Positions 39,771 through 44,350 of a stretch of DNA of 64,000 nucleotides are shown piece after piece. The stretch comes from Chloroflexota bacterium. Lineage in GTDB: Bacteria > Chloroflexota > Dehalococcoidia > Tepidiformales > Tepidiformaceae. The stretch lies in the NCBI GenBank assembly GCA_016234445.1, contig JACRBT010000011.1:1-64000 (forward strand), in the 5' to 3' direction. The notes under the pieces were generated by a model. It searched no databases. It was not told the origin of the DNA and saw only the letters and a list, made by a program, of their open reading frames with translations. A program made the translations under genes and the position numbers. How positions within the stretch are numbered: the stretch's first letter is position 1; the number at the start of each line of letters is the position of its first letter.

Positions 39771-41585
39771 ATGGCACTTGGTGGATACGCGGGCCGCGTC
39801 GCCCACGTCGACCTCACAAAGCGTTCGACCGACTATCGCCCAATCCCCGAAGACTGGGCCCGGAAGTACATCGGCGCCCGCGGCCTGGGTGTCCGCTACG
39901 TCTACGAAGCCGGCCCCACGATCGACGCCATGTCGCCGGCCAACGTCCTCTGCTTCATGAACGGCCCCCTCACCGGCTCCGAGGCGACGATGAGCGGCCG
40001 CATGGCCGTCGTCACCAAGAGCCCCCTGACCGGCACCGTCACCGACAGCCACCAGGGCGGGTGGAGCGCGGCGCGCCTCCGCTGGGCCGGGTTCGATGGC
40101 CTTATCTTCGGCGGCAAGGCGGCCAGCCCCGTCTACGCCTATATCGCCGACGGCAAGGTCGAGATCCGCGACGCCGGCGACCTCTGGGGCAAGGGCGCCC
40201 ATGAGACGATCAAGGTGCTCCAGGAGCGTCACGGCAAGGATGACCTCAGCGTGATGGCCATCGGCCAGGCGGGGGAGAACCTCGTCCGTTTCTCCAGCTG
40301 GCTGAACGAAAACGACCGCGCCGCGGGCCGGGGCGGTACCGGCTGCGTCGGCGGCAGCAAGAACCTCAAGGCGATCGTCATCAAGTCCGCCCGCAACTAC
40401 CCCCGGGCCGCCAACCGCGACGCCTGGCGCACCGCCCACGCCAACGCCCTCGGCAAGATCATGGACGAATCCACGATCACCTCGCCGAAGAAGGGTGGCC
40501 TTTCGATCTACGGCACCAACATGCTGATGAACGTGACGAACACCATCGGCGCGCTCGGGGCCCGCAACAGCCAGGAGACCTCCTTCGCCAACGCCGAGAA
40601 GATCGGCGGCGAATACGTCAACGAGCACTACCTCATCGACGACCCCACCTGCCACGCCTGCCCCGTCGCCTGCAAGAAGGAAGTCGAGGTCAAGGAAGGC
40701 CCCTACAAGGTCAAGATGGAGTCGGTGGAGTACGAGCCCGCCTGGTCGCTGGGGGCGAACTGCGGGAACGACGACGTCGCCTCCGTGGCCTTCATGATCG
40801 ACCTCGCGAACGACTGGGGCTACGACGCCATCGAGATCGGCCAGGCCATCTCGGCGGTCATGGAAGCCACCCAGCGTGAGTACATCCCCGCCGGCGAAGG
40901 GGTCCAGTGGGGCGACACCCAGCAGATGGTCGAGTTCATGCGGCAGGTCGCCTTCCGCAAGGGCCCGGGTGCGAAGCTCGCGGACGGCATCGACGCGTTC
41001 ACGAAGTCGATTGGCCACCCGGAACTGGCGATGACCGTGAAGGGCCAGGCGACGCCCGCCTACGACCCCCGCGGGCTCAAGGGCATGGGCCTCGGCTACG
41101 CCACCTCGAACCGCGGCGCCTGCCACCTGCGCGGCTACAGCCCCGCGAGCGAGCTGGGCGTCATCGGCCTCAAGACCGACCCGCTCGCCTTCGAAGGCAA
41201 GGGCGAACTCCTCAAGCTGCTCCAGGACCTCCACGCGTTTTCCGACAGCCTGGACCTCTGCAAGTTCAGCGCCTTCGCAGAGGGCGCGGACGAATACGCC
41301 GAGCAGTACCGGGTGATGACGGGCATCGACAAGTTCGACGCCGGCGACGTCCTGATCGCAGGCGAGCGCATCTACAACCTCGAACGTCACTACAACAACC
41401 TCGCCGGCTTCGGCGAAGGGTCGGACACCTTGCCGCGGCGGTTCACGCATGAGCCTTCGACCTCGAAGGGCTCAATGGGCCAGGTCTGCGAACTCGACGC
41501 GATGCTGGAGGAGTACTACCGGCTCCGCGGCTGGGAGAAGGGCGTGGTCCCCGAGTCCAAGCTCAAGGAGCTCCAGGTCGTCTAG
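39771..41585 (+). CDS. aor: Tungsten-dependent aldehyde ferredoxin oxidoreductase
   Basis: A 604-residue enzyme of the AOR family that oxidises aldehydes to carboxylates (or reduces acids) with ferredoxin. The [4Fe-4S] ligands are Cys294, Cys297 and Cys301 (CHACPVAC) and Cys497 (LDLCKF), closely matching the spacing known for Pyrococcus AOR. Pterin-binding regions include GTGCVGGSKNLKAIV and KGMGLGYATSNRGACHLRG. It is complete. The nearby convergent moaD supplies a molybdopterin-synthase small subunit, consistent with tungstopterin need. Confidence 0.92.
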   Translation: MALGGYAGRVAHVDLTKRSTDYRPIPEDWARKYIGARGLGVRYVYEAGPTIDAMSPANVLCFMNGPLTGSEATMSGRMAVVTKSPLTGTVTDSHQGGWSAARLRWAGFDGLIFGGKAASPVYAYIADGKVEIRDAGDLWGKGAHETIKVLQERHGKDDLSVMAIGQAGENLVRFSSWLNENDRAAGRGGTGCVGGSKNLKAIVIKSARNYPRAANRDAWRTAHANALGKIMDESTITSPKKGGLSIYGTNMLMNVTNTIGALGARNSQETSFANAEKIGGEYVNEHYLIDDPTCHACPVACKKEVEVKEGPYKVKMESVEYEPAWSLGANCGNDDVASVAFMIDLANDWGYDAIEIGQAISAVMEATQREYIPAGEGVQWGDTQQMVEFMRQVAFRKGPGAKLADGIDAFTKSIGHPELAMTVKGQATPAYDPRGLKGMGLGYATSNRGACHLRGYSPASELGVIGLKTDPLAFEGKGELLKLLQDLHAFSDSLDLCKFSAFAEGADEYAEQYRVMTGIDKFDAGDVLIAGERIYNLERHYNNLAGFGEGSDTLPRRFTHEPSTSKGSMGQVCELDAMLEEYYRLRGWEKGVVPESKLKELQVV

Positions 41586-41673: not shown

Positions 41674-41922
41674 CTATCCGCCGCCCCGGATGCACTTCCG
41701 GCGGACGAAGGCGGCCGCCTCGGCCTCGCGCTCGCCGCTGACTTCGATGAAGAGCACGGGGACCACCGTGAGCCCCATCCGAACCGGCTCGCCGGGGATG
41801 AAGCGCACGAGCCAACCGTCGCCGGTCACCGTGCTTTCGTCCCGGGCCACGCCTTCGAATTCGTCCGTCAGGTCGCGAACGAGGAGCGCGGCCGGGACGT
41901 TGCGCACCTCCAGCCGCGTCAT
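41674..41922 (-). CDS. Small hypothetical protein cotranslated with moaD
   Basis: An 82-residue protein of unknown family beginning TRLEVRNVPAALLVRDLTDE and ending RRKCIRGGG. It is mostly beta/alpha with a central TGDGWLVRFIPGEPVRMGLTVVPVLFIEVSG and has a single cysteine near the C-terminus. ATG 41922 overlaps the moaD stop (ATGA). The coupling and its position beside the tungsten AOR suggest a role in pterin cofactor work, but this is inference only. Confidence 0.6.
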   Translation of the reverse strand: MTRLEVRNVPAALLVRDLTDEFEGVARDESTVTGDGWLVRFIPGEPVRMGLTVVPVLFIEVSGEREAEAAAFVRRKCIRGGG

Positions 41923-42194
41923 CCGCCCGCGGCCGGGGGAAAGATGTCGACGGTCGCGTCGGGCGGGATGGGCGTTTCCAGGCCCTGGAGGTGGCGGATT
42001 TCGCGGCCGTCCACGAAGACCTTCACGTAGTCGCTCAGCGACCCGTCGGGCTGCCAGATGAGCGCCCGCAACTCGGGGAAACGATCGCCCGCTGCGTCCA
42101 GGAGCGTGCGGGCCGTGGCGTCGCCGCCGAGGTCGAAGGCGACGTGCTTCGTCCCGGCGATCTGGCGAAGGGTGGCGTAGAAACTGACGTCCAT
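41919..42194 (-). CDS. moaD: MoaD-like molybdopterin-synthase small subunit / ThiS-family sulfur carrier
   Basis: A 91-residue beta-grasp protein. It opens MDVSFYATLRQIAGTKHVAF, has VFVDGREIRHL in the middle and ends VDIFPPAAGG with the terminal diglycine needed for thiocarboxylation. MoaD-like genes commonly accompany AOR genes. ATG 42194 is 8 nt after a TATACT on the minus strand; there is no Shine-Dalgarno. The frame opens further upstream, but that part is antisense to the small membrane gene. Confidence 0.88.
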   Translation of the reverse strand: MDVSFYATLRQIAGTKHVAFDLGGDATARTLLDAAGDRFPELRALIWQPDGSLSDYVKVFVDGREIRHLQGLETPIPPDATVDIFPPAAGG

Positions 42195-42202
42195 CGCCCA
42201 TG

Positions 42203-42210
42203 AGTATACT
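42203..42210. promoter_or_regulatory. Palindromic -10 AGTATACT shared by divergent genes
   Basis: AGTATACT reads TATACT on both strands. Rightward, TATACT (42205-42210) is 6 nt before ATG 42217. Leftward, TATACT (42208-42203) is 8 nt before the moaD ATG at 42194. Neither gene has a Shine-Dalgarno sequence, so the same 8-bp palindrome appears to serve two leaderless messages, which would be mutually exclusive at any moment. Confidence 0.6.
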
Positions 42211-42216
42211 TGCCGC

Positions 42217-42393
42217 ATGGTCGGGCCCGTCGGCCACCGCCGCGACTTCGGGCAAGAATCCCTGGAGTCCGCGGTCAAGGAACACCGCGAGGACCCGTGG
42301 GGCCGGAAGCCCGGCAACAGCTGTCTCGCCTTCTTCGGGCTCGTGATCCTGGTCCTGACCGCGGCGGTCACGCTCTGGCGGCTGTTCACCTGA
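42217..42393 (+). CDS. 58-residue single-span membrane protein, copy 1
   Basis: A 58-residue protein: a charged cytoplasmic-type N-terminus (residues 1-35, including HREDPWGRKPG) followed by one membrane helix (about 36-54) and the end WRLFT. Codon use matches its neighbours. It starts 6 nt after TATACT with no ribosome binding site. It aligns without gaps to the next small protein over its whole length (21 of 58 identical). It is too short for most gene callers. Function unknown. Confidence 0.7.
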   Translation: MVGPVGHRRDFGQESLESAVKEHREDPWGRKPGNSCLAFFGLVILVLTAAVTLWRLFT

Positions 42394-42409
42394 GCCCGCG
42401 GCTCCGGTG

Positions 42410-42415
42410 TATGAT
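42410..42415 (+). promoter_or_regulatory. -10 box TATGAT, 6 nt before the second small membrane gene
   Basis: TATGAT followed by GACCTC and ATG 42422 gives the same leaderless layout as the first copy, so each paralogue seems to have its own promoter. Confidence 0.5.
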
Positions 42416-42421
42416 GACCTC

Positions 42422-42598
42422 ATGTTGGGACGCCTTCCGCAGCAGGATCCCTTCGACGAAGGAGAGATCCGGGCGCGGGTAGAACGAATCCACGAGGACC
42501 CACACCTGCGCGGCCCGGGCAAGAGCATCCTTGCCGCCGCCGGGGTGGCGCTGCTGGTGGTCTGGGCCGCCTGGTGGGCGTGGCCGCTCATCACCTGA
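42422..42598 (+). CDS. 58-residue single-span membrane protein, copy 2
   Basis: Also exactly 58 residues. The N-terminal half is acidic/amphipathic (DEGEIRARVERIHEDP), then LRGPGKSILAAAG leads into a Trp-rich membrane helix (VWAAWWAWPL). Shared with copy 1 are EDP-x2-R-x-PG-x-S-x-LA-x2-G and the terminal W-x-L-x-T. It lies 28 nt after copy 1 with its own -10 box. Family unknown to me. Confidence 0.7.
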   Translation: MLGRLPQQDPFDEGEIRARVERIHEDPHLRGPGKSILAAAGVALLVVWAAWWAWPLIT

Positions 42599-42620
42599 CG
42601 CGGTGTGCTACCATAACGCG

Positions 42621-42689
42621 GTGCTGCTTCCGATGACGAAGCCCCCGGTGATAGTTCCCCCGCGGCAATCCCGCGGGGCTGTGATTTAG
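42621..42689 (+). CDS. Candidate leaderless 22-codon leader peptide upstream of citramalate synthase
   Basis: TACCAT (42609-42614), 6 nt, then GTG opens a 22-codon frame ending TAG 42687-42689. It encodes Leu-Leu early, then Val-Ile-Val, and Val-Ile as the last two residues, so branched-chain codons make up almost a third of it. It overlaps a strong hairpin (42658-42678) and precedes a gene of isoleucine synthesis. This suggests ribosome-mediated attenuation, but no alternative antiterminator was worked out. Confidence 0.4.
   Translation: MLLPMTKPPVIVPPRQSRGAVI
42658..42678 (+). promoter_or_regulatory. Hairpin within the leader region of citramalate synthase
   Basis: CCCCGCGG (42658-42665) pairs perfectly with CCGCGGGG (42671-42678) around a 5-nt loop. 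Only a short TTT follows 7 nt later, so it is not a standard terminator. Its 5' arm lies just after the Val-Ile-Val codons of the leader frame, where a stalled ribosome could cover it. Confidence 0.4.
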
Positions 42690-42760
42690 CGCGCCTTTCT
42701 CCCCCGCTCTTTTCCGTTCGCCAGCCCGCCGTATCTTCGAAGAGAGAAAGGTCTCCCCAC

Positions 42761-44350
42761 ATGCCCACCGACCGCGTCCAGCTTTACGACACCACCCTCC
42801 GCGATGGCAGCCAGATGGAGGGCATCTCCCTTTCCGTCGAGGACAAGGTCCGGATTACGCGGAAGCTCGACGAGCTCGGTCTGGAGTGGATCGAAGGCGG
42901 GTTTCCGGGTTCGAACCCCAAGGACGCCGAGTACTTCCGCCGCCTCCGCGAGATCAAGCTCAAGAACGCGAAGGTCAGCGCCTTCGGCGGCACGCGTAAG
43001 CCGAACATCACCTGCGAAACCGACGCCAACATCCAGAGCATGGTCGCCGCCGAGACCCCGGGCATCACCCTCGTGGGCAAGGCCAGCATGTTCCAGGTTC
43101 GCGAGATCCTCGAAACCAGCGGCGAAGAGAACCTGGCGATGATCACCGACACGGTGAAGTACTTCAAGGGCCTCGGGAAGACTGTCTTCTTCGACGCCGA
43201 ACACTTCTTCGACGGGTTCGCCGACGACCCCGACTACTCCCTCCAGTGCCTGGCGACTGCCGCCCGCGCCGGCGCCGACGCTCTCGTCCTCTGCGACACC
43301 AACGGCGGGATGACCACCTTCGGGATGCTCCGGGCCATCGCCGCGGTCCAACACCGGATGAACGACGTCCGCCTCGGGATTCACTGCCACAACGACGCCG
43401 GGCTCGCCGTCGCGAACTCGATGGCCGCGGTCGAAGCGGGCGTCTGGCAGGTGCAGGGCTGCGTGAACGGCTACGGGGAACGCTGCGGGAACGCCGACAT
43501 CCTCACGATCCTCGCGAACCTCAAGCTCAAGATGGGGCTCGAAGTGGTGGAAGACGAGCAACTCGCCCGCCTGGCCGAGGTCTCCCACTACGTCAGCGAA
43601 CTCGCGAACATGCTCCCGAACGCCCAGGCGCCCTACGTCGGCCAGAGCGCTTTCGCCCACAAGGCGGGCTACCACGTCGCCGGGATCATGAAGAACGAGT
43701 CGGCCTACCAGCACGTCGACCCCGTCCGCGTCGGCAACACCAGCCGCGTCCTCGTCAGCGAACTCTCCGGGCAGCGCAACCTCCTGATGAAGCTCCAGGA
43801 GCGCGGCATCGACTTCCCCCTCACGCAGGAGGAGATCAAGAAGCTGCTCGACACGGTCAAGGAGAAGGAGAGCCAGGGCTACCAGTACGAGGGCGCCGAA
43901 GCCAGCTTCGAACTCCTCGTCCGCCGGACCCTGCCGGGCTACCGGGCGCCGTTCGAACTCGAGGACTTCGTCATCGTCGAACGCCGCCGCCAGAGCCACG
44001 ACGTCCAGCAGCTGAACGAAATGCTCGCCGAGGCGATGGTGAAGGTCCGGGTCGACGGCGAACTGAAGCACACGGCGTCCGAAGGCAACGGCCCCGTCAA
44101 CGCCCTGGACACCGCCGCGCGGAAGGCGCTGGTCGAGTTCTACCCTGCCCTCGCCGAAGTGAAGCTGGTCGACTACAAGGTGCGCATCCTCGACAGCCAG
44201 GCGGCCACGGGCGCGAAGACCCGCGTGCTCATCGAAAGCACCGACGGGACGCGCTACTGGACCACGGTCGGCTGTTCGACCGACATCATCGAAGCCTCCT
44301 GGCTCGCCCTCGCGGACGCGCTCGAATACGCCCTCACCGCCGAGGGATAG
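42761..44350 (+). CDS. cimA: Citramalate synthase
   Basis: A 529-residue enzyme of the isopropylmalate/citramalate synthase family that condenses pyruvate and acetyl-CoA, the first step of the threonine-independent isoleucine route. The catalytic start QLYDTTLRDGSQMEGIS, GGFPGSNPKD, HCHNDAGLAVANS and VNGYGERCGNADI fit CimA rather than LeuA, as does AHKAGYHVAGIMKN. The C-terminal regulatory LeuA-dimer domain begins near residue 390 (feedback by isoleucine expected). GAGAAAGG precedes ATG 42761. Confidence 0.93.
   Translation: MPTDRVQLYDTTLRDGSQMEGISLSVEDKVRITRKLDELGLEWIEGGFPGSNPKDAEYFRRLREIKLKNAKVSAFGGTRKPNITCETDANIQSMVAAETPGITLVGKASMFQVREILETSGEENLAMITDTVKYFKGLGKTVFFDAEHFFDGFADDPDYSLQCLATAARAGADALVLCDTNGGMTTFGMLRAIAAVQHRMNDVRLGIHCHNDAGLAVANSMAAVEAGVWQVQGCVNGYGERCGNADILTILANLKLKMGLEVVEDEQLARLAEVSHYVSELANMLPNAQAPYVGQSAFAHKAGYHVAGIMKNESAYQHVDPVRVGNTSRVLVSELSGQRNLLMKLQERGIDFPLTQEEIKKLLDTVKEKESQGYQYEGAEASFELLVRRTLPGYRAPFELEDFVIVERRRQSHDVQQLNEMLAEAMVKVRVDGELKHTASEGNGPVNALDTAARKALVEFYPALAEVKLVDYKVRILDSQAATGAKTRVLIESTDGTRYWTTVGCSTDIIEASWLALADALEYALTAEG

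Follow-up and report, generated by a model that had tools for sequence, protein, structure and literature searches.

A tandem pair of probable leaderless genes for small membrane proteins upstream of cimA in a Tepidiformaceae genome

The locus between moaD and cimA

The DNA analysed, here called the window, is a stretch of 64,000 nucleotides within a contig of 119.5 kb, from a Tepidiformaceae genome of 3.54 Mb which is 97% complete. Between the AOR/moaD locus and cimA it carries two short open reading frames in tandem, sORF1 and sORF2 (Table 1). The initial annotation had described two proteins of 58 residues, 21 of them identical without gaps, lying between these two loci; the pair is present as claimed. 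It had also placed the ORFs below common gene-calling cut-offs, which is not strictly right, as they are 177 nt long and the minimum ORF length of Prodigal is 90 nt.

Table 1. Features of the moaD-cimA region (positions in the window)
Feature	Position	Strand	Remarks
AOR	39771-41585		Pfam AFOR_N + AFOR_C
moaD, SAMP1-like (ubiquitin-like small modifier 1) type	41922..42194	-	NCBIfam NF041918; neighbour outside the pair
Palindromic AGTATACT	42203..42210	.	-10 box TATACT of sORF1 on +, candidate -10 box TATACT of moaD on -
-10 box of sORF1, TATACT	42205-42210		exactly 6 nt upstream of the sORF1 ATG
sORF1	42217..42393	+	58 aa, predicted tail-anchored; helices predicted at about 14-22 (amphipathic) and 35-57 (membrane)
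-10 box of sORF2, TATGAT	42410..42415	+	exactly 6 nt upstream of the sORF2 ATG
sORF2	42422..42598	+	58 aa, paralogue of sORF1 (21/58 identical, ungapped); unit repeat 205 bp
Leader of cimA	42609..42689	+	-10 box (TACCAT) and leaderless ORF with hairpin; neighbour outside the pair
Leader ORF	42621-42689		starts with GTG; 22 aa, MLLPMTKPPVIVPPRQSRGAVI; ends 72 nt before cimA
Leader hairpin	42658-42678		CCCCGCGG-CAATC-CCGCGGGG
cimA	42761-44350	+	downstream flank of the pair

The moaD gene scores 81.5 bits against its NCBIfam model (cut-off 60) and is divergent from sORF1, the two starts being 22 bp apart. It is adjoined by an 82-aa gene (41677-41922, minus strand) which has homologues in 8 of 294 genomes of the class, next to moaD in G003, G014, G025, G026 and G037. 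This gene has no NCBIfam match, and its Pfam match to DUF1952 is just under the cut-off (19.2 against 22 bits).

Both small proteins have the motif EDPxxRxPGxSxLAxxG (EDPWGRKPGNSCLAFFG and EDPHLRGPGKSILAAAG) ahead of a single C-terminal membrane helix, as had been noted. AlphaFold, run with the alignment of the two sequences, predicts the membrane helix confidently (pLDDT about 90) and the short helix at 14-22 with low confidence. Apart from a single Arg close to the C-terminus of sORF1, the charges are found ahead of the membrane helix. Since the N-terminus is rich in charges and the chain ends at the helix, the proteins are probably tail-anchored with the N-terminus inside the cell.

Coding evidence and leaderless promoters

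The local BLOSUM62 score between sORF1 and sORF2 is 87. Shuffled proteins, with soluble and membrane segments shuffled separately (n=5000), gave a mean of 24.8, a standard deviation of 5.6 and a maximum of 55. The similarity belongs to the annotated frame, with a BLOSUM sum of 87 compared to 17, 17, 13, 48 and 48 in the remaining five frames. In a neutral simulation sORF1 was randomly mutated by the number of nucleotides separating the two copies and the amino-acid score was recomputed; at this equal divergence the mean was 18.5 (sd 17.2), and 87 was reached in 1 of 4000 runs. The G+C content at codon position 3 is gene-like in both ORFs (0.92 and 0.81). Compared in blocks of 20 nt, the copies are similar from the -10 region through the ORF, with a drop past the stop codon, thus the repeated unit is about 205 bp long and includes the promoter. 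From these data sORF1 and sORF2 are very probably real genes, and the best reading of the pair is a tandem duplication of this promoter-plus-gene unit in the lineage of the window.

Each ORF has its own -10 box, as the initial annotation stated. The spacing was compared with that of other genes in the source genome, using 295 long ORFs in 464 kb. The hexamer TANNNT precedes a candidate start by exactly 6 nt in 27 cases and by 7 nt in 11, i.e. in 38 of the 295 genes tested, and is seen 0-4 times at other distances; among 3637 internal control codons it occurs once at 6 nt and four times at 7 nt. This excess tells that the source genome uses leaderless promoters. Both sORF1 and sORF2 have the modal spacing of 6 nt and belong by it to the leaderless class, defined as TANNNT 6-7 nt upstream of the start. 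Leaderless genes with a -10 box directly upstream of the start codon are known in Actinobacteria and Deinococcus-Thermus; the two ORFs share with these the position of TANNNT 6-7 nt before ATG or GTG, and we noted no difference.

Over 400 kb the leaderless signature picks out other short ORFs as well. Some of these resemble known genes, among them ones that we take, by recognition alone, to be GatC-like and FmdB-like. Another short ORF of the source genome (L253, G000:C2, about 165129-165368, minus strand) has the arrangement TANNNT-N7-ATG and a single C-terminal membrane helix.

The palindrome AGTATACT offers the identical hexamer to moaD on the opposite strand, 8 nt before the moaD ATG. It is possible that it forms the core of a bidirectional leaderless promoter shared by moaD and sORF1; bidirectional promoters arising from such symmetry are described in PMC10268837 and PMC12825309. 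A scan of 42100-42800 found no sigma-70-like promoter on either strand, which is expected because the promoters lack a -35 match; the scan is insensitive and misses leaderless -10 boxes too, and since -10-only promoters escape it, it makes a weak statement on antisense promoters.

The leader ORF of cimA

The leaderless signature also pointed to the ORF between sORF2 and cimA. Its element is present at 21 loci of the family (L096-L114, L121, L123 and others), and at 20 of them a TANNNT box stands 6-8 nt ahead of an in-frame ATG or GTG; it was not seen at 63 cimA loci outside the family. The layout is GGTGANA followed by the hairpin CCCCGCGK-NNATC-NCGCGGGG and then usually by ATT and a stop codon; the leader peptide ends with V-x-x-x-PR[QPST]SRG-x-x-I. 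Each of the 21 sequences preserves the 8 pairs of the stem, and 7 of the 8 are invariant. The single varying pair occurs as G-C, U-A and U-G, at third codon positions where these changes leave the encoded Arg and Ser unaltered. As the other seven pairs never vary, the covariation evidence amounts to one pair.

Rfam gave no match in the window or in three relatives searched at the gathering threshold, no NCBIfam or Pfam model covers the leader, and the literature searched holds no description of it. We consider it likely that this is an undescribed cis-regulatory leader of isoleucine synthesis. The obvious reading is a leader-peptide attenuator; it should be noted that the codon after the leader GTG is Ile in only about half of the sequences, so isoleucine sensing is not established. 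This side finding is stronger than the finding of the paired ORFs.

Distribution and possible role of the pair

Searching the source genome to E 10 gave no homologue beyond the two copies; the further matches, with E between 0.3 and 1.6, are weak and lie in other or longer frames. No homologue was detected in 38 genomes of the family, 393 of the class and 400 of the phylum (none from another species of the source genus), nor in GTDB contigs, IMG/VR, phages, plasmids or PDB, where absent means not detectable, as searches of this kind easily overlook short proteins. The weak family, class and phylum matches with a frame were each inspected and rejected, as the frames they fall in are longer or interrupted; nothing supported an origin of the pair from a phage or a plasmid. 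The initial annotation knew no family for the proteins, and indeed the profiles of Pfam-A, NCBIfam, PHROGs and PADLOC gave nothing better than E about 0.1 for either of them; the Pfam SecE model, the mark of a SecE-like translocase subunit, is absent among their Pfam matches.

Among everything searched the family thus consists of these two paralogues. The suggestion of an undescribed family of small membrane proteins stands in part: the proteins are very probably real, paralogous and single-span, and no wider family was found. Among the observations that had been named as speaking against them, the lack of homologues is largely what is seen outside the source genome, and there is therefore no cross-species evidence of selection; for another, a frame without conservation, the two copies themselves are evidence to the contrary. 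We regard the pair as credible but ordinary lineage-specific small genes and not as a widespread new family.

The ORFs do not track with AOR/moaD, which the initial annotation had suggested checking. Thirteen genomes have a moaD of this type and about a dozen of the family have close homologues of AOR, and the ORFs are found only in the genome of the window. In G037 the order and divergence of the 82-aa gene, moaD and cimA are as in the window, with AOR located elsewhere; the gap between moaD and cimA is 220 bp there against 566 bp in the window and contains no such short ORF. A search upstream of the other AOR-type moaD genes likewise gave no short membrane ORF, and we rejected the pair as a component of an AOR/moaD system.

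At the cimA side one locus resembles that of the window. Homologues of the window's cimA in the family are about 80-89% identical to it, which helps to place the genome in or next to Tepidiformaceae (Dehalococcoidia, Chloroflexota). In G018 (89%) a 64-aa ORF (L097 1059-1253, TACGCT-N6-GTG) with a C-terminal membrane helix occupies, on the same strand, the position that the pair has relative to the cimA leader. G018 is alone in having a comparable short ORF directly upstream of the leader among the family loci carrying it, some of which are too short upstream to be judged (e.g. L102, 116 nt). Some genomes of another genus (g17) have ORFs of 45-72 aa before cimA which look like N-terminal lipoprotein signals. 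When the starts set the register, the G018 ORF has PF-x3-E at 10-15 in common with sORF2, and R30, G33 and A38 recur in all three sequences; shuffling gives p about 0.016 for the whole comparison and 0.005 when it is limited to the N-terminal part, in a register chosen after seeing it. Free local alignment with the pair gives p about 0.55 and an offset-free test 0.14; homology to the pair is suggestive only. The ORF has no relative elsewhere in the family.

How the pair arose and what it does can be read in several ways. Open frames are common in GC-rich DNA, the G+C content is 68%, and the window holds plenty of long spurious ORFs; nevertheless, chance ORFs are hardly credible here, given the frame-specific similarity of the two copies and their two exact leaderless -10 spacings. 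It is unlikely, though by no means far-fetched, that the pair are young lineage-specific orphans, i.e. that a short hydrophobic ORF and its leaderless promoter came into being in the DNA between moaD and cimA and were then duplicated, and that the copies are expressed and nearly neutral or only recently useful. Confinement to one genome agrees with this, as does G037 with its shorter and empty gap in the same neighbourhood, but the copies have kept length, frame, motif and helix at a nucleotide identity of 52%, which argues for long selection and not for neutrality. Rather doubtful is the view that the window genome and G018 share a position-conserved class of small, fast-evolving membrane proteins ahead of the cimA leader, their orthology being hidden by divergence. 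Position, strand, leaderless start, C-terminal helix and the residues shared in the start-set register speak for it, while the non-significant free alignment, the offset-free result, the post hoc register and the lack of a further family relative speak against it. To go further and see in the pair and the G018 ORF a fast-evolving class of leaderless tail-anchored Tepidiformaceae micro-proteins, which would regulate a membrane complex and be unrecognisable by sequence search across genera, is more doubtful still.

Type I toxins (the Ldr, Ibs and Hok class) are small, hydrophobic, tandem and narrowly distributed, and the pair resembles them in size, single span, tandem copies and narrow distribution. 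That the two genes are tandem type I toxin genes silenced by antisense RNA is nevertheless improbable: with leaderless starts there is no 5' UTR on which antisense control could act, 34 charged cytosolic residues precede the helix, PADLOC gave no match, and no antisense promoter was found in the insensitive scan described above.

The reading we prefer, tentatively as a whole, is that the two genes encode tail-anchored proteins which form a pair and serve a larger membrane protein as accessory subunits. Two separately promoted leaderless genes would each give a protein of 58 residues with about 34 of them in the cytosol, comprising the short amphipathic helix and then EDPxxRxPG, which may act as a hinge before the C-terminal membrane helix. 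The proteins would be inserted post-translationally as tail-anchored proteins, might pair via their helices, and could then bind the larger protein as small accessory or regulatory subunits. Size and topology are what make the accessory role the most likely one; expression, topology, pairing, partner and function are all things we infer, and the neighbourhood offers no linked partner gene.

Annotations cover small membrane proteins poorly, and where homology fails the exact leaderless -10 spacing can give independent evidence for short genes in Tepidiformaceae. The conserved leader ORF of cimA, flagged by the same signature, is the more useful lead, being a family-wide candidate cis-regulatory element.

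Small accessory subunits of the CydX, KdpF and AcrZ class have 30-60 residues and one membrane helix and are often missed by annotation. The pair is like them in its small size, its single membrane helix and in belonging to a kind of gene that frequently goes unannotated. It differs from them in having neither a Pfam or NCBIfam match nor a partner operon; there are also two copies, which have diverged, and their charged N-terminus is longer.
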